DNA of 44,198 nt. It comes from Gammaproteobacteria bacterium. Its GTDB lineage: Bacteria; Pseudomonadota; Gammaproteobacteria; Nitrosococcales; Methylophagaceae. Positions within the stretch are counted from its first letter, which is position 1, and every line of letters starts with the position of its first letter. The notes below the pieces were generated by a model. It was given only the letters and a program-made list of their open reading frames with translations. It did not search any database and had not been told where the DNA came from. Below, in pieces: positions 1 through 44,183 of this stretch. The position numbers and the translations under genes are program-made. The stretch covers positions 1-44,198 of the forward strand of contig JAQWIT010000005.1 of the NCBI GenBank assembly GCA_029248745.1. Reading direction: 5' to 3'.

Positions 1-602
1 TGACAGAGCTTAAGATGCTCTTTAACATATTTCCCAGAGACTAGGTCACCTTCTGGAATATCCATCCTTAGAAGCTCCTGTGTGTCCTTCTGTGCGTAAT
101 TTTTCTTGTTCCGTTGAGGAAGTCTAGCAATATGATTTAAAGCTATTTTAATGTCTGATTTCGTTACCTTATCAACAGGTACATCTCCCAGTAAATGAAT
201 CAGATTATCAAACATTCTCTGATTAGCTTTTAATTGTTTTTCAGTCCATGACTTCCAGTTATTAAAGTCTGACCATGCCCCAGATAATAACGGAACCGAC
301 TTTGTCTCATTGGATATGTATGGCTTGTTAGTCTCAATTTGGAAAGGACTTTTAAAGTCTGAAATATCTCGAAGCACTCCTTCTACACTTTCCCTACCTA
401 CACAATCACGAAGAATCCTGATTGATGGAAGTTTAGCGGAGACTAAAGCCAATGCTGTTGTATGGGAATCTGTACGTAAACTGCGCTTAATTTCAGTTGG
501 GAGTTGAGGGCATAACTCACGAATATACGGAGGTAATACGTATCGAAAATAGAATATATTCCCTCTTTGAAAGAGGTAGTTTTGTACCAGTTTTTGTACC
601 AT
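1..602 (-). CDS. Tyrosine site-specific integrase, N-terminal part (runs off the window)
   Basis: Reading the minus strand from the ATG at 602 gives about 200 uninterrupted codons to the window edge. The protein opens MVQKLVQNYLFQRGNIFYFR, the beta-strand arm typical of phage and island tyrosine recombinases of the DUF6538 type (consensus like YLxxRGxxYYFRRRIP). It then has an RSLRTDSHTTALALVSAKL stretch matching the usual 'slkTkdlreAr' helix, and a SAM-like core-binding segment around residues 110-165. The catalytic R-H-R-Y domain would lie left of the window and cannot be checked. AAAGGAG stands about ten bases before the start. The gene begins 66 bp beyond the 3' end of rnpB and points away from it, as an integrase does at an attachment site in an RNA gene. 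The family call is confident from the N-terminal arm; activity is unknown. Confidence 0.8.
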   Translation of the reverse strand, partial: MVQKLVQNYLFQRGNIFYFRYVLPPYIRELCPQLPTEIKRSLRTDSHTTALALVSAKLPSIRILRDCVGRESVEGVLRDISDFKSPFQIETNKPYISNETKSVPLLSGAWSDFNNWKSWTEKQLKANQRMFDNLIHLLGDVPVDKVTKSDIKIALNHIARLPQRNKKNYAQKDTQELLRMDIPEGDLVSGKYVKEHLKLC

Positions 603-649
603 AAGTCAGTTACTCCTTTCGAAAGAAATAGCTAACCTACTGATTAGAT

Positions 650-690
650 TTGATAATAAATAAAATTTGAGATGGCCGATAAGCCGGGTT
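650..690 (-). other. Candidate attachment junction at the 3' end of rnpB
   Basis: This is the boundary between the RNase P RNA 3' end (669) and the integrase leader. Islands that use RNA genes usually recombine within the last tens of bases of the gene and rebuild its 3' end, leaving a direct repeat at the far end of the island. The far end is outside the window, so the core repeat cannot be seen. The call is inference from the position and direction of the integrase. Confidence 0.3.
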
Positions 691-1029
691 CTGTCGAGAA
701 CAATCATTCATCTGGGACAAACGTCACCGTCTGCCTCAAGCAACCTACCCAAGAACGATACGGGCCATATCTGTGTGCAAGCACACTGCTCTTCTATTTG
801 GTCTTGCTCCAGGTGGGGTTTACCTTGCCATAAGCTGTTACCAGTTATGCGGTGCGCTCTTACCGCACCTTTTCACCCTTACCGATAATTCGAAAATAAG
901 CGGCGGTCTATTTTCTGCTGCACTGGCCGTAGGCTCGCGCCTCCCAGACGTTATCTGGCACCCTGCCCATTGGAGCCCGGACTTTCCTCACCATTAGCCA
1001 ATGCTAAAGCGCGATTGTCTGGCCATCTC
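669..1029 (-). ncRNA. rnpB: RNase P RNA (bacterial class A)
   Basis: This is the catalytic RNA that removes 5' leaders from tRNA precursors. On the minus strand the conserved blocks appear in order: GGAAAGTCCGGGCTCC near the 5' end, GGTAAGGGTGAAAAGGTGCG, GTAAGAGCGCACCGC, GGTAAACCCCACC, GGAGCAAGACCAAATAGAAG, and a 3' ACAGAACCCGGCTTATCGG. The terminal P1 helix is perfect: GAGATGGCC at the 5' end pairs with GGCCATCTC at the 3' end, and this fixes the boundaries. The length of about 361 nt is normal. The gene is transcribed from just behind rsmI, in the same direction, and is followed after 66 bp by an integrase gene. Because the 3' end is intact, any island integration here has restored the RNA. 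Confidence 0.97.
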
Positions 1030-1038
1030 AAGACTCTG

Positions 1039-1055: not shown

Positions 1056-1907
1056 TTATGTTTGCTTGAGTTTTAACGCTAAGTCATAGGCTTTATTTTT
1101 ACTTGTTCCTAATAATTGTGCCGTTATTGCTGCTGCTTTTTTCATGGGTAAATCGTCTAATAATAATGACAATACCCTTTCTACCTCAATCACACCCGGG
1201 TCGGTTTGTTCGATTTTACCTGCCACCAGTAACACGCATTCACCGCGTTGTTGATTGCTATCACTTTCTACCCAAGCGACTAATTCACTCAACGGTTTCG
1301 TCACAATAGTTTCATGTACCTTGGTCAGCTCTCTCGCTAAACAGATTAAGCGATCTGGCCCAACTACCTCCAGCATTTCATTTAATGTTGCTCTTAAGCG
1401 CCTTGGGCTCTCATAAAAAATAATGGTCTGAGATGTGTTTTTCAGGCTTTCTAACACCTGCCGTTTTGCTCCTGCTTTGCTTGGCAAAAAACCTTCAAAA
1501 CTAAATTTATCGGAAGGTAATCCGGAAGCAGATAATGCTGCGATAAGTGCGCAACTGCCTGGGACAGGTACGACCTTTATATTATGTTCTCTTACTAATG
1601 ATACCAAGCGATAACCTGGATCGCTGATCAATGGTGTACCCGCATCGCTTATCAGAGCAACAGATTCTCCTTGCTGTAACCGCGACAATAGCACTTTGCT
1701 GCGTTGTTGTTCATTGTGCTCGTGTAAGGAGACCGTCGAGGTTTTAATCGCATAATGTTGTAATAAATGACCGCTATGTCGCGTGTCTTCCGCTGCAATG
1801 ACATCGACAGTTTGTAATACCTCAATAGCGCGTGGTGACAAATCGGCTAGATTTCCTATTGGGGTCGCCACGATATATAAATTTGCTGATGTTGATTCTA
1901 TTTCCAT
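1056..1907 (-). CDS. rsmI: 16S rRNA 2'-O-ribose C1402 methyltransferase
   Basis: RsmI methylates the ribose of C1402 in the decoding centre of 16S rRNA, using S-adenosylmethionine. The 283-residue protein has the diagnostic start LYIVATPIGNLADLSPRAIE, the AEDTRHSGHLL motif, ALISDAGTPLISDPGYRLV (the SAM-site region of the tetrapyrrole-methylase fold), PVPGSCALIAALSASGLP and FYESPRRL. Its length is normal. I chose the ATG at 1907; a GTG one codon earlier (1910) is also possible. It is divergent from lpoA across about 100 bp, the common gammaproteobacterial arrangement, and rnpB lies 26 bp beyond its stop on the same strand. Confidence 0.95.
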   Translation of the reverse strand: MEIESTSANLYIVATPIGNLADLSPRAIEVLQTVDVIAAEDTRHSGHLLQHYAIKTSTVSLHEHNEQQRSKVLLSRLQQGESVALISDAGTPLISDPGYRLVSLVREHNIKVVPVPGSCALIAALSASGLPSDKFSFEGFLPSKAGAKRQVLESLKNTSQTIIFYESPRRLRATLNEMLEVVGPDRLICLARELTKVHETIVTKPLSELVAWVESDSNQQRGECVLLVAGKIEQTDPGVIEVERVLSLLLDDLPMKKAAAITAQLLGTSKNKAYDLALKLKQT

Positions 1908-2008
1908 CACAGAAAACTAACCTTCATTTTTGCGTACTCAGTTCTGGTCGTAATATACGCTAACAGGTAAACTGTTTTCATTATTATAAAAATACACTTG
2001 TTATTACA

Positions 2009-3880
2009 ATGATACTATCGCGATTTTCTTTAGCCGCCATTTTGGCACTCTCTCTGACTCTGACTGGGTGCCAATCCCTGAGCCCGCTGACAGTGCACGA
2101 TGTAAAAGCAGAATCACAGGCACGCATTGCCATTCAATCTGGCGACTTTTCAAGTGCTGCACAACAGTATGAAGTATTGGCTAAAACCAGTGGCAGTACA
2201 CACCGTTCGCGGCTATACATTCAGGCCGCGTCGGCTCATTGGCAATTAGGACAGGTTAAACAAGCACGTGTCATGTTAGCGAAAATTGATCGCGAGCAAT
2301 TAACGCCCAATCTGGCTTTCGATATCTCAGTTTTGGAAGCCAACTTCGCCATTCAGGCACTCAATGCATCACAAGCCTTGTCTCTGTTAGAACCTTATCA
2401 TGCTGACCAATTGACCGCCAGACAACAACGCACTCTGTACCGAACTCGCATTCAGGCTTACCAGAATAGCGAAAATTGGTTAGAAATGGCAAACAGTCAT
2501 ATTCGCTTGGATAATTTATTAGCTGATAGCGAGCGTGAAGCCAATCAGCAACAATTATGGCAAGCATTGATGATGCTGACACCTGAGGCACTAGATTTAT
2601 TTAACCCAGGCTTCCCTCCAGCTACTGATAGTGGTTGGTTTACTCTAGCTCACATTATTAAAACCTACCAAAATAATCCCGATGTATTAATAGTTGCATT
2701 AGAAGACTGGCAACGCAGTTACCCTAACCACACTACTTTACCTTCCATTTATAAACAAGAAATTGAAACCACTGGCACCCTACTGCCAAAAGAAATAGGT
2801 CATATTGCGATCTTATTACCTGCTTCAGGTCCTTATGCTGAAGTCGCTCGCACCATTAGAGAAGGTATCTCAGCAGCACATTATGTGGAAAACTCGGAAA
2901 CAAAATTGCATTTCATTGAAACACAAACAGATAGCATTTCAGGCCTGACCAATGTTGAATATGCATATCAACAAGCGATTGATTTAAATGCCAGCTTGGT
3001 GATCGGGCCTTTAGATAAAGAATCCATTCGGGTTTTGTCCCATGCTCCTCAACTACCTATTCCTGTTTTGGCCCTTAATCGCTTATCTGGCTTCCAACAG
3101 AAACCCAATTTATACCAATTTGGATTAGCGCCCGAAGATGATGCGATTGCTGCTGCAAAAAATGCGATGGCAAAAGGCTATCGCCGTGCTGTCATCGTTG
3201 CACCTGACGCGGCATGGGGCCAACGAATCGCTGCTGCTTTCGAAGCACAATGGCTTAGCCAAGGTGGTGTTTTGTTGGGGCAAGCAAGTTATAACGAATC
3301 TGAACATGATTATGCGGATGTCATCACTCCTTTATTAGGCTTACCAGCAAGTGAACAGCGTTATAGAATGGTGCGTCAGACCCTTGGTGTTCCCGCAGAG
3401 TTTGAGCCTCGCCGTCGTCAAGATATCGATTTAATCTTTATAGCTGCTCGTCCTAATAAAGCCAAACAATTAGTGCCACAATTTAGATATCATCGTTCTG
3501 GTGAATTACCTATCATCGCGACTTCACATGCTTATTCAGGTCGTGAAGATGCACAACAGGACATTGATTTGAATGGTTTATTTATCAATGATATTCCGTG
3601 GGCTTTCCCAGAACTTGCCGAGGATGATTATACCTATCAAGCTTTAAAGCAACAGCAATCTCCTTCTTTTGGACGTCTATTACGTCTATACGCGCTAGGA
3701 GCCGATGCTTATCGACTCAGTAAAGAGCTCAACCGTCTAAGCCATTCGCCTACGCTTAGTTTTCAAGGAGCTACTGGAGCCTTATCAATAGATGATAATG
3801 GCTTCGTTAACCGTCATCTGAACTGGGGCACTTTTTCAGATGGCAAAATTAGGTTATTGGCTTCGCCAGTTATAGAATAA
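2009..3880 (+). CDS. lpoA: Outer-membrane lipoprotein activator of penicillin-binding protein 1a (LpoA/LppC family)
   Basis: LpoA is anchored in the outer membrane and spans the periplasm to stimulate the peptidoglycan synthase PBP1a. The 623-residue protein has a lipoprotein signal peptide with lipobox LTGC (Cys about residue 21). An N-terminal helical, TPR-like half runs to about residue 240 (SGDFSSAAQQYEVLAKTSG, SAHWQLGQVKQARVML). A C-terminal half resembles a periplasmic binding protein (HIAILLPASGPYAEVARTIR, VIGPLDKESI, ALNRL). Length matches the family. Its stop overlaps the ATG of the yraN remnant by one base (taATG), so the two are an operon, as in E. coli yraM-yraN. Confidence 0.9.
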   Translation: MILSRFSLAAILALSLTLTGCQSLSPLTVHDVKAESQARIAIQSGDFSSAAQQYEVLAKTSGSTHRSRLYIQAASAHWQLGQVKQARVMLAKIDREQLTPNLAFDISVLEANFAIQALNASQALSLLEPYHADQLTARQQRTLYRTRIQAYQNSENWLEMANSHIRLDNLLADSEREANQQQLWQALMMLTPEALDLFNPGFPPATDSGWFTLAHIIKTYQNNPDVLIVALEDWQRSYPNHTTLPSIYKQEIETTGTLLPKEIGHIAILLPASGPYAEVARTIREGISAAHYVENSETKLHFIETQTDSISGLTNVEYAYQQAIDLNASLVIGPLDKESIRVLSHAPQLPIPVLALNRLSGFQQKPNLYQFGLAPEDDAIAAAKNAMAKGYRRAVIVAPDAAWGQRIAAAFEAQWLSQGGVLLGQASYNESEHDYADVITPLLGLPASEQRYRMVRQTLGVPAEFEPRRRQDIDLIFIAARPNKAKQLVPQFRYHRSGELPIIATSHAYSGREDAQQDIDLNGLFINDIPWAFPELAEDDYTYQALKQQQSPSFGRLLRLYALGADAYRLSKELNRLSHSPTLSFQGATGALSIDDNGFVNRHLNWGTFSDGKIRLLASPVIE

Positions 3881-4242
3881 TGCCCACACCTAAGGCCATA
3901 GGTGATGATGGTGAACAATTGGCCCTTAGCTACCCTCAAAATAATGGTTTGAAACTGATCACCCGTAATCTTCGTCAGCGAAGTGGGGAAATTGATCTGA
4001 TCATGCAAGATGCCAAGGTTTTGGTCTTCATCGAACTCAGGCGTAGACAATCTGAACAATTTGGCAGTGCTCTAGAAAGTGTGACCTATCAAAAACAACA
4101 GCGGCTTATCCAAACTGCATAAATTCATCTCCAACAAAACAACCGACGTTACTCTAGTTATCGCTTTGATGTCATGGGAATTTCACCGATTAATAATGAC
4201 TTTAATCTCAACTGGGTGAAAGATGCATTTCAACTAAACTAA
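3880..4242 (+). pseudogene. yraN: YraN/UPF0102 endonuclease-like protein, interrupted by a stop codon
   Basis: The first 80 codons carry the UPF0102 signature: GDDGEQLAL, RNLRQRSGEIDLIMQDAK and VFIELRRRQ (usual form FVEVKxR), then a K-rich helix QKQQRLIQTA. A TAA at 4120-4122 ends that frame. The same frame continues without gap as IHLQQNNRRYSSYRFDVMGI and on to a TAA at 4240-4242, which is exactly the expected C-terminal part (yL..., ..RFDVvai), giving the usual length of about 120 codons. A glutamine codon CAA changed to TAA would explain the break. The truncated 80-residue product lacks the final strand and helix of the fold and is probably inactive. A sequencing error is possible. Function of intact homologues is poorly defined (restriction-endonuclease-like fold). 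Confidence 0.8.
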
Positions 4243-4301
4243 TGCTGGCTAAATGTGTTTCATACAGCGATAATAAAACTATTATTGATTAGGATATTGT
4301 C

Positions 4302-4877
4302 ATGCTAAAGTCGAAATATGTGCTACTTCTTCTCCTTCCTCTTATTGTATTACAAGGGTGTGCTACAGCTGTTATTACCGGTGCTGCTACAGGTGCTTCC
4401 ATTGCACATGATAGACGAACAACTGGATCGGTTATTGACGATCAAGGCATTGAGTTCAAAGCAGTAAGTGCTATCTATAGAAACAAAGCTATCTATGACC
4501 AAAGTCATGTCAATGTTACTAGTTATAACGGTACAGTGTTAATCACAGGCGAATCCTTAACGGAACAGTTAAAACAACAGATTCATGATCTGGTTCGCGT
4601 CATTCCTAAGGTTATGACTATTCATAATGAGTTAACTATTGCAGCACCCAGTGCTTTACCTTCTCGAAGCAGTGATGCTTGGATTACCTCTAAAGTTAAA
4701 GCGAAAATCACGGCCGATGAAAACCTAGACCCCTTCTTCGTTAAAGTCGTCACTGAACACGGTATTGTTTATTTAATGGGGATCGTCACTCGAACAGAAG
4801 CACAACGCGCTGTCCATATTGCTTCAACCTCAGCTGGTGTACAACGTGTCGTTAATATCTTTGAGTATGCTGACTAA
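4302..4877 (+). CDS. dolP: BON-domain outer-membrane lipoprotein (DolP/YraP-like)
   Basis: The 191-residue protein has a lipoprotein signal with lipobox LQGC (Cys about 20), a small Ala/Gly-rich segment (TAVITGAATGASIAHDRRTT) and two BON domains. The first spans about residues 50-115 (NVTSYNGTVLITGESLTEQL). The second spans about 125-191 (DAWITSKVKAKI, VVTEHGIVYLMGIVTRTEA, VQRVVNIFEY). E. coli DolP (YraP) has this lipoprotein plus dual-BON layout, binds anionic phospholipid and supports outer-membrane integrity. It lies downstream of lpoA-yraN, the usual place. AGGA precedes the ATG. Its last codons overlap the 3' end of the convergent hemJ by four bases. Confidence 0.88.
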   Translation: MLKSKYVLLLLLPLIVLQGCATAVITGAATGASIAHDRRTTGSVIDDQGIEFKAVSAIYRNKAIYDQSHVNVTSYNGTVLITGESLTEQLKQQIHDLVRVIPKVMTIHNELTIAAPSALPSRSSDAWITSKVKAKITADENLDPFFVKVVTEHGIVYLMGIVTRTEAQRAVHIASTSAGVQRVVNIFEYAD

Positions 4878-5299
4878 AATGGTTTAACCACCGCTAATAT
4901 CACCACAGCTACCAATATTAGTACAGGAAACTCGTTAAAATAGCGGTAATAGACATGCGAACGCTGGTTAGCATCATTAGCGAAGTCTCTTAAGATACGA
5001 CCACATAGTCCATGGTAAGCAAAAAGTATGATTATCAAAGCCAACTTAACATGAAGCCAACCCATCGTTGCTAGGATTGCTATTGGGTAATAACTCATTA
5101 GCCAAACACCCAGTACTAAAGCCACTATTGCACTCGGCGTCATAATCCCTCTGTATAGCTTACGTTCCATTGTTTTGAATCTTGCATTACTCACCTCATC
5201 TTCGCTCATTGCGTGATAAACAAATAAACGTGGCAAATAGAATAACGCCGCAAACCAAGTGATCACGGTCATAATATGAAAGGCCTTCACCCACAACAT
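4874..5299 (-). CDS. hemJ: Protoporphyrinogen IX oxidase, HemJ type
   Basis: HemJ is a membrane haem protein that oxidises protoporphyrinogen IX to protoporphyrin IX, the penultimate step of haem synthesis. The 141-residue protein matches the family over its whole length: MLWVKAFHIMTVITWFAALF, YLPRLFVYHA, GWLHVKLALIIILFAYHGLC, RSHVYYRYFNEFPVLILVAV. It has about four membrane segments, and the conserved His (KAFHI) and the Lys of HVKL are present. I place the start at the ATG at 5299, preceded by AAGGA at good spacing, because homologues begin MLWVKAFH; a TTG at 5305 would add two codons. It is divergent from the PilZ remnant and convergent with the BON lipoprotein. Confidence 0.9.
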   Translation of the reverse strand: MLWVKAFHIMTVITWFAALFYLPRLFVYHAMSEDEVSNARFKTMERKLYRGIMTPSAIVALVLGVWLMSYYPIAILATMGWLHVKLALIIILFAYHGLCGRILRDFANDANQRSHVYYRYFNEFPVLILVAVVILAVVKPF

Positions 5300-8767: not shown

Positions 8768-10171
8768 TTAAGGTACACCATAATCATCATAGTCATTGAA
8801 AGCAAAATTTACGAAACGTGTATATTTACCTTGGAACGTTAATGCTACTGTGCCAATTGGACCATTACGTTGTTTACCGATAATAATCTCGGCTTTGCCC
8901 TTTTCAGGAGAATCCTCGTTATAAACCTCATCACGGTAAATAAAGACAATCAAATCGGCATCTTGCTCAATCGCCCCGGACTCACGTAAGTCAGACATGA
9001 TTGGACGTTTATTGGGTCTTTGCTCAAGGCTTCTATTTAACTGTGATAATGCGATCACAGGTACTTCTAATTCTTTGGCTAAAGCTTTTAAAGAACGTGA
9101 AATCTCGGAAACCTCTGTTGCCCTATTTTCATTGCTGCCTCCACCACTCCCTTGCATTAATTGAATATAGTCAATCACGATCATACTCAAACCATGTTCA
9201 CGCTTTAGACGGCGTGCTCTGGCACGTAGTTCTGTTACCGTTAATGCTGGCGTATCATCAATGAACAACGGTGCTTCATTTAATAAAGCAATTGCCGATG
9301 TCAGTCTTGGCCAATCATCATCATTCAGCTTACCTGTCCGCAAACGGTGTTGGTCAATCTGACCTAAGGAAGAAAGCATCCGCATTGCCAAAGCGTCAGA
9401 TGGCATCTCCATACTAAAAACCGCAACAGGCTCTTTGCTTTTTATCGCTGCATTTTCAGCCAAGTTCATTGCAAAGGTTGTTTTACCCATTGATGGGCGA
9501 CCTGCCACGACAACTAAATCTGCTGCCTGCAAACCCGAGGTTTGCTCATCAAAATCTGCAAAACCCGTCGATAGACCTGTGATGGCACTATCTTGCTCAA
9601 ATAAAGTATCGATTCTATCAACGACTTTACTCAAGACTTCTTTGACTTGAACAAAACCACCTGCTCTTTTTGCCCCTTTTTCGGCTATTTCGAAAACTTG
9701 GCCTTCAACCAAATCCAACATTTCTTCGCTGGTTCTACCCTCTGGGTTAAAGGCGGTATTCGAAATCGTGGTGCCGACGGTAATCAATTGACGTAGAATA
9801 GAGCGCTCTCTCACAATCGAAGCATAAGCTACAATATTGGCAGAACTCGGGGTGTTCCGGGATAACATACCTAAATAAGCAAGCTCACCGACTTGTTCAA
9901 GTTCACCGCGTGTATCGTGATATTCAGCTAAGGTAATAACGTCAACAGGCTGAGATTGTTCAAATAAAGCCGCTATGCCGCGAAAGATAAGTTGATGATC
10001 CCTGCGATAGAAATCATGTTCGACAAGAAAATCAGCCGTTTTTTCCCAGCTTTCGTTGTCCAAGAGGAGTCCACCAAGCACTGATTGCTCGGCTTCAATT
10101 GAATGTGGCGGGACTTTCAGTGCCTCTGTGGCGGTATCTTTATATGAATCAAGATAACTTAAATCTTCCAC
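8768..10171 (-). CDS. dnaB: Replicative DNA helicase DnaB
   Basis: DnaB is the hexameric 5'-3' helicase that unwinds DNA at the replication fork. The 467-residue protein has the N-terminal DnaG-interaction domain (PPHSIEAEQSVLGGLLLDN), Walker A VVAGRPSMGKTTFAMN, Walker B MIVIDYIQLM, the DnaB motif 3 region (VPVIALSQLNRSLEQRPNKR) and the arginine-finger region near DLRESGAIEQDADLIVFIYR. It has no intein and is of normal length. It lies about 130 bp downstream of rplI in the same direction, with a strong hairpin between them, and is followed closely by alr. Confidence 0.98.
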   Translation of the reverse strand: MEDLSYLDSYKDTATEALKVPPHSIEAEQSVLGGLLLDNESWEKTADFLVEHDFYRRDHQLIFRGIAALFEQSQPVDVITLAEYHDTRGELEQVGELAYLGMLSRNTPSSANIVAYASIVRERSILRQLITVGTTISNTAFNPEGRTSEEMLDLVEGQVFEIAEKGAKRAGGFVQVKEVLSKVVDRIDTLFEQDSAITGLSTGFADFDEQTSGLQAADLVVVAGRPSMGKTTFAMNLAENAAIKSKEPVAVFSMEMPSDALAMRMLSSLGQIDQHRLRTGKLNDDDWPRLTSAIALLNEAPLFIDDTPALTVTELRARARRLKREHGLSMIVIDYIQLMQGSGGGSNENRATEVSEISRSLKALAKELEVPVIALSQLNRSLEQRPNKRPIMSDLRESGAIEQDADLIVFIYRDEVYNEDSPEKGKAEIIIGKQRNGPIGTVALTFQGKYTRFVNFAFNDYDDYGVP

Positions 10172-28480: not shown

Positions 28481-28520
28481 CTTAAGTTGGTTTTTGTAGC
28501 TTAATTGATTTCAAAAACCT

Positions 28521-28612
28521 AGCCTAGGGGTGGCAAAAAGGCCTGAGACTTTCTGATTTTCAGAATAAACCCTATGAACCTGATCCAGTTAATACTGGCG
28601 TAGGGACAGGCT
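28521..28612 (+). promoter_or_regulatory. TPP riboswitch aptamer (THI element)
   Basis: The conserved TPP-aptamer blocks are present in order: GGGGTGG, CTGAGA (28543-28548, pyrimidine-sensing loop), AAACCCTATGAACCTGATC, and TAATACTGGCGTAGGGA. The closing helix P1 pairs AGCCT (28521-28525) with AGGCT (28608-28612). It senses thiamine pyrophosphate and controls the TonB receptor gene 67 bp downstream. Confidence 0.96.
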
Positions 28613-28673
28613 GAGATAACGCAACTCCTTTCCGATTTTACGATATCTCCCTGTCCTTTTTATATAAAAAGGA
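28604..28673 (+). promoter_or_regulatory. Riboswitch expression platform with a ribosome-site sequestering hairpin
   Basis: Two exclusive structures can be drawn. One pairs GGACAGG (28604-28610) and GAGATA (28613-28618) with TATCTC (28644-28649) and CCTGTCC (28650-28656). The other is a perfect 8-bp hairpin of TCCTTTTT (28654-28661) with AAAAAGGA (28666-28673), which buries the AAGGA ribosome site five bases before the ATG. The first competes with aptamer helix P1 (28608-28612) and with the hairpin (28654-28656). TPP binding would hold P1, free the TCC and close the ribosome site: an OFF switch acting on translation. Confidence 0.65.
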
Positions 28674-44066: not shown

Positions 44067-44183
44067 GCCTGGCAGTGACCTACTTTCACATGGGAACTCC
44101 CACACTATCATCGGCGCTAAGTCGTTTCACTTCTGAGTTCGGGATGGATTCAGGTGGGACCAACTCGCTATGGCCGCCAGGCA
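44067..44183 (-). rRNA. rrf: 5S ribosomal RNA
   Basis: The minus strand from 44183 reads TGCCTGGCGGCCATAGCGAG, then TCCCACCTGAATCCATCCCG, AACTCAGAAGTGAAACGACT, TAGCGCCGATGATAGTGTGG and GTTCCCATGTGAAAGTAGGT. It ends CACTGCCAGGC, pairing with the 5' end (GCCTGGC/GCCAGGC). It is the last gene of an rRNA operon whose 23S and 16S genes lie to the right of the window. Confidence 0.98.

Follow-up and report, generated by a model that had tools for sequence, protein, structure and literature searches.

Nearly all organisms possess RNase P RNA and depend on it, so that its gene, rnpB, should suit a mobile element as a landing site no less than a tRNA gene does. Genomic islands in stable RNA genes are described as having an integrase beside the RNA gene, a displaced fragment of that gene at the far end and a target that is left whole (PMC4383910). 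The flkA/flkB islet of E. coli is located on island GI10 of strain ECC-1470 and can elicit one-way flagellar phase variation (PMC5422975); matched through strain and gene content, not through coordinates, this islet corresponds to the E. coli rnpB locus analysed here. A partial search of the literature gave no text naming rnpB as an attachment site, and prior publication is possible. Islands in rnpB are as such not new, the flk islet being one, and are a little-noticed kind; what is added here is the breadth of the integrase lineage, the anatomy of the core and putative arm-type sites, and the member found in the present DNA. A preliminary description of this DNA had called rnpB a much less described target, which holds, but the target is not undescribed, as the flk islet is found there with a related integrase. 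The lineage connects the flagellar phase-variation islet of E. coli with islands of polysaccharide or defence-like cargo in other bacteria. Islands with related integrases occupy the corresponding position in further marine bacteria as well as in E. coli.

The stretch of DNA analysed, called the window, is an entire contig (G000:C6) of 44,198 bases from a genome of 1.73 Mb in 20 contigs (G000), so that the sequence to its left could be reached solely through other contigs. A class A RNase P RNA gene at 664..1030 on the minus strand matched RF00010 with 329.5 bits over the full model (1-367), in agreement with the intact rnpB 3' end of the preliminary description. The island gene closest to rnpB is an open frame at 3..602 on the minus strand encoding the N-terminal 200 amino acids of a DUF6538 tyrosine integrase. 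The gene begins ATGGTACAAAAACTGGTACAAAAC with an ATG at 602, points away from rnpB and is free of stop codons up to the contig end, which cuts the protein at residue 200. Its N-terminus matched Pfam DUF6538 (PF20172) with 35.6 bits against a cut-off of 27. The ATG is separated by 61 nt from the end of the rnpB model at 664 and by 65 nt from base 668, where the repeated block described below ends, so that the DUF6538 integrase previously placed 66 bp past rnpB and pointing away was confirmed.

The catalytic half of the integrase is absent from the window. The catalytic motif of tyrosine recombinases is R, K, HxxR, H, Y, and in the homologue P0001, which carries PF00589, stretches fitting this motif start at 266, 295, 357, 381 and 392. 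The N-terminal DUF6538 domain is common to the window integrase and other DUF6538 integrases, and the two full-length homologues scanned also contain PF00589; the window lineage differs from the other DUF6538 integrases in being tied to rnpB. No second match to a full-length integrase homologue was found in genome G000 at E ≤ 1e-8, and the sole further match in the contigs and contig ends that were read was a 28%-identical piece on contig C18, probably from a different integrase. The sequence between integrase and rnpB (603..663, minus strand) is unlike the host sequence that follows the far rnpB copy at the start of contig C16 and is assigned to the island, forming the element side of the rnpB junction. 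On the opposite side of rnpB a host gene was found as an open frame at 1056..1910 on the minus strand, which from its sequence is taken to be rsmI-like; a similar frame precedes rnpB in Motiliproteus locus L077. Elsewhere the window contains a TPP riboswitch (28516-28624, plus strand) and a 5S rRNA gene (44067-44181, minus strand).

A 27-base probe from the rnpB 3' end gave two matches in genome G000, rnpB itself and the start of contig C7. The match on C7 is part of a mismatch-free copy of 107 bases of the rnpB 3' part, with C7:24-130 identical to window positions 668..774 (minus strand) over 107/107 bases and in direct orientation. Such a repeat of the rnpB 3' end was what the preliminary description had proposed to look for, and it marks the island's far boundary. 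On one side of it contig C7 carries, on the minus strand, frames of phosphoglucomutase/phosphomannomutase type and mannose-1-phosphate guanylyltransferase type (manC-type), cargo genes that presumably serve surface polysaccharide. On the other side 23 bases run into contig C16, the left ends of both contigs overlapping exactly by 45 bp; this was the only exact overlap of at least 15 bp among the readable contig ends, remaining island contigs included. A match to mraZ begins at C16:465, and the order deduced from these overlaps would be rnpB, integrase, unassembled island, polysaccharide-type genes, rnpB 3' copy and mraZ. The readable assembly is without the island middle and the catalytic half of the integrase, and three small contigs read N. 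The two large C7 frames and six island frames of a related genome (G032, see below) contained no structural or transfer Pfam match indicative of prophage or conjugative genes, the rest of the window's island being outside the assembly. Contig C20 has a further manC-type frame and one resembling ABC-2 transporters, both named by eye; no link between C20 and the island was found among the exact contig-end overlaps.

The rnpB region of relatives was compared using 40 stretches from 37 genomes, 29 of which are rnpB stretches of the window's family. The mraZ gene was located downstream of rnpB in 20 of the 29. For the remaining nine, the stretch extends less than 0.7 kb behind rnpB in G005, G019 and G009, shows rsmH only in G029, and gave no mraZ match within the available length in G004, G021, G002, G030 and G035; in G020 and G010 the contig ends within rnpB. 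The distance from rnpB to mraZ was 314-535 bp in six island-free relatives (G014, G024, G027, G033, G031 and G034) and reached up to 7.9 kb in other family members. With the island removed, the distance in G000 would be about 440 bp (C16:22 to 465), which lies between the shortest and longest distances at the empty sites. Integrase and rnpB are not constantly linked, as 48 of the 57 family genomes had no match at E ≤ 1e-8. The preliminary description had set two patterns against an island, the lack of a repeat and an integrase conserved in every relative, and this comparison with integrase-free relatives, together with the far copy, showed neither.

The 3' part of rnpB is repeated at both ends, rnpB is whole, the far copy leads into host mraZ, and relatives have empty sites. 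The window very probably contains one end of a genomic island inserted by a tyrosine integrase into the 3' end of rnpB, and the role of rnpB as attachment site, offered earlier as inference, is supported by the far repeat toward mraZ, the empty sites and the both-ended islands of other genomes. The island shares the adjoining integrase, far fragment, intact target and empty sites of islands in stable RNA genes, and differs from those described in PMC4383910 in having the RNase P RNA gene as target and a predicted core, deduced from E. coli, at its extreme 3' end.

Since the genome is a draft, C7 is a contig of 3 kb and the junction of C7 to C16 is a 45-bp contig-end overlap, the integrase could be next to rnpB by chance and the second rnpB piece could have arisen by ordinary duplication or from faulty assembly. 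However, a like arrangement was found on E. coli chromosomes and on single contigs of four other genomes. In G032 one contig carries rnpB, a 413-aa integrase 66 nt on, an exact 112-bp copy of the rnpB 3' end 7.5 kb on, and mraZ. Both rnpB copies are also on one contig in G470 (135 bp at 100%, 8.1 kb on), G440 (124 bp at 92.7%, 2.5 kb on) and G543 (at least 150 bp, which is the probe length, at 98.7%, 3.5 kb on). In addition, the 16-mer GACAGAACCCGGCTTA of the rnpB 3' end was present in 265 class genomes and occurred twice solely in the window's genome, as read by eye from per-genome counts covering all 369 class genomes, and a putative arm-type repeat is present at both ends of the island. Chance or artefact is on these grounds barely credible, and insertion into rnpB is the reading followed below. 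Six other island frames of G032 had no Pfam match, and two of these six match Hp1 and Hp2, PADLOC models that belong to a candidate defence system.

Such islands can be located by a simple rule, the presence of the rnpB 3' end in duplicate. A covariance search of ten genomes gave a second partial rnpB copy at E < 1e-15 in G412, G480, G444 and G542, those of the first three being on other contigs, and weak or no second matches in the other six. The far copy is broken in G537, and second copies in G015, G019 and G002 are short or degenerate. No second copy was found in the stretches searched of G449, G480 and G455, each of which runs to a contig end.

Of 5426 E. coli genomes, 19 have a stretch after rnpB with a homologous integrase, 18 of them at a coverage of at least 80%. 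Six of the 19 loci were opened together with one E. coli record from a plasmid collection, and the integrase was behind rnpB in 7/7. In each of the six opened islets, rnpB and the integrase are accompanied by genes for a resolvase-type protein and a flagellin and by a gene of 525 bases, for which the annotation is flagellin repressor except in ECC-1470, where it is FliC-related protein; the integrase of PCP06173 is split by an insertion sequence. The islet is followed by yhaC in five of the six strains and by other genes in EH10-18-47. The flk region is reportedly flanked by yhaC and rnpB and includes an integrase as well as direct repeats. The E. coli integrase is 38% identical to that of G032 over 322 residues. 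Like the window's island, the flk islet lies directly behind an intact rnpB, has a homologous integrase, a core inside rnpB and 12-bp-spaced repeats at both ends. It differs in that its cargo is flagellin, where the far end of the window's island has phosphomannomutase- and manC-type genes and the middle is unassembled, in that about 12 bp are common to all its sites, and in having a TGTGATACA-like arm motif instead of GGTACA; the two E. coli islet integrases as annotated have no DUF6538 match, unlike that of the window.

The far end of the islet was found in five of the seven E. coli loci (L133, L135, L137, L138 and L139) and not in L128 and L134 within the stretch available. With E. coli K-12 as the empty reference site, the 12-bp sequence CTTATCGGTCAG inside rnpB was common to the empty site, the rnpB side and the far side in the five islet strains. 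Islet sequence follows downstream of CTTATCGGTCAG on the rnpB side and precedes it on the far side, where L133, L138 and L139 resemble rnpB over the eight bases before the core. Empty and filled sites place the crossover of E. coli in CTTATCGGTCAG. Strand exchange in the lineage would take place within this core of about 12 bp at the extreme end of rnpB, the exchange in K-12 rnpB being predicted to fall inside CTTATCGG. Because the predicted exchange is at the very end of the gene, the island would supply the last bases of the RNA and the end helix P1 would stay paired. In the islet the RNA end reads GGTCAGCTTC and is fully paired with the P1 strand GAAGCTGACC; at this place K-12 has one G-U pair.

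By homology to the E. coli core, the crossover core of the window is predicted to be CTTATCGGCCAT at 672..683 on the minus strand. The window crossover could not be placed directly because this sequence sits inside the identical block of 107 bases, and the identity of both copies over the whole block would also suit a crossover at its 5' edge, with the island supplying the entire 107-base rnpB 3' part as in classical tRNA islands. That the 5' edge varies between genomes from 46 to at least 150 bases, with a nearly constant 3' end, and that the E. coli sites share just the 12-bp core make such a 5'-edge crossover improbable, and a crossover within the 3'-terminal core is preferred. The long repeats (107 to at least 150 bases) compared with about 12 bases in E. 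coli have gene conversion and the capture of rnpB sequence at excision as candidate explanations. In K-12 (L136), repeats 113 bp apart behind rnpB carry pieces of the rnpB 3' end that include the core and may have been left by earlier insertions. Ahead of the core, the altered K-12 sequence (CGACACT...AAAGCGGCTTA) resembles that in the partial rnpB copy of G542 (L180).

Two GGTACA units 12 bp apart form a putative near arm-type integrase site at 583..600 on the minus strand, within the first codons of the integrase (MVQKLVQ). A putative far arm-type site was located at C7:194-211, 63 bases from the far rnpB copy. The pattern GGTACA-N5-7-GGTACA was found at two places in the whole 1.73-Mb genome, the integrase start and near the far end; a reversed control pattern likewise had two matches in G000, so that the evidence is the location of the matches and not their number, which is at the level of chance. 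The pattern had one match in 190,638 bases of the genome's own contigs, window included, and seven matches in related loci totalling 316,159 bases; every one of them is at an integrase start, that of G002 being a degenerate frame, or beside a far copy. The exact pattern misses the integrase starts of G005, G007, G440, G543, G449 and G480, among others, where units are imperfect or only one was seen.

The motif varies by lineage at both ends, being GGACTACA in G470, GGTACA in G412 and TGTGATACA-like in E. coli; G440 and G480 have the GGTACA motif with imperfect near units, and the far site of G543 is degenerate. In E. coli the far site comprises three such units at 12-bp spacing, and in one of five strains the third unit is weak. 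The near units translate to MVQKLVQ in the window, VTQTVIQ in E. coli and VDYRVDY in G470, and the overlap of units and gene in E. coli supposes an earlier start, as the annotated start is further downstream. The 12-bp-spaced repeats at both ends are probably arm-type sites that the integrase would bind. As the near pair lies in the first codons of the integrase, binding may also limit expression of the integrase itself. The defined core and the candidate arm sites make these predictions testable.

Integrase matches at E ≤ 1e-8 were found in 9 of 57 genomes of the window's family, and in seven of the nine (G000, G005, G007, G012, G019, G032 and G412) the integrase is behind rnpB, some being remnants. 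A weaker integrase remnant is behind rnpB in G001. The matches in G025 and G028 and a second match in G012 are 29-33% identical integrases, those of G025 and G028 being at 29-32%, with a tRNA gene nearby. The Motiliproteus locus L077, with a cut integrase behind rnpB, was the entry point to the family of G428, in which 12 of 116 genomes had integrase matches (E ≤ 1e-15). Nine of these 12 have rnpB upstream within about 1 kb, G537 as a remnant only; in the exceptions the integrase is not behind rnpB (G429), has a tRNA gene nearby (G529) or is a remnant after a second, partial rnpB copy (G542). Two tandem integrase matches, both with internal stop codons, were observed behind one rnpB at G449:C4:1-7043 (L165, L145 and L154).

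The integrase remnants or short and degenerate second copies in G012, G007, G015, G019, G002 and G542 could mean that integration into rnpB is real in the lineage and the island here is immobile, its long host-identical repeats being kept alike by homologous recombination. The near identity of the 107-150-bp repeats to host rnpB, suggesting gene conversion, agrees with such an island; set against it, the window integrase is open over all 200 codons present and both repeats are identical, and immobility is judged rather unlikely.

Among 369 genomes of the class, P0001 matched that of the window alone at E ≤ 1e-15, which indicates a patchy lineage. In phage records the window integrase fragment had no match and P0001 had 13 weak matches. 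The plasmid collection contained 22 matching records, two of which covered at least 80% of the query; the best of them, from E. coli, has the size of a chromosome (4.8 Mb) and carries rnpB a short way ahead of the integrase, and it led to the flk islets. Viral contigs gave one relative, 30% identical and without rnpB in the stretch available, and the assembled-contig search gave two loci from one scan. Among the more distant integrase relatives examined, some are near tRNA genes or ffs, and those of G470 and G455 are at rnpB; L125, L132 and L142 have neither rnpB nor tRNA/ffs within reach.

In an integrase tree of 23 rows, six of which are less than half filled, the clade of the window lineage contains nine rnpB rows and one other, and G470 and G455 are apart from it. 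The rnpB label needs three changes over all rows, so that a common origin of rnpB targeting does not follow from the tree. A broader proposal is given about an even chance of being correct: that a tyrosine integrase lineage across distant Gammaproteobacteria is dedicated to rnpB, with a core at the 3' end, a P1 strand rebuilt with the island's own bases, and arm sites repeated every four codons (12 bp) in the first integrase codons, one stretch of DNA serving as binding site, gene start and possibly off-switch; that a second, distant integrase lineage (G470, G455) reached rnpB with its own arm motif; and that the K-12 repeats are scars.

A close integrase in Amphritea (L076) is not behind rnpB, the real rnpB being on another contig, and starts 76 nt after CTTATCGGC within a perfect hairpin. 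This hairpin (around 9930-9970) has the loop TTATCG and arms corresponding in sequence to the P1 strands of rnpB from the same genome; it may be a secondary site or an rnpB remnant. In an Aeromonas caviae record (L141) a distant relative with 25% identity (4001-5041) lies after a small SRP RNA gene (3748-3844), which is possibly another stable-RNA target. A Klebsiella record (L132, 7437-12043) contains a broken integrase relative followed by a DUF4238 gene, with repeats of similar type at the integrase start.
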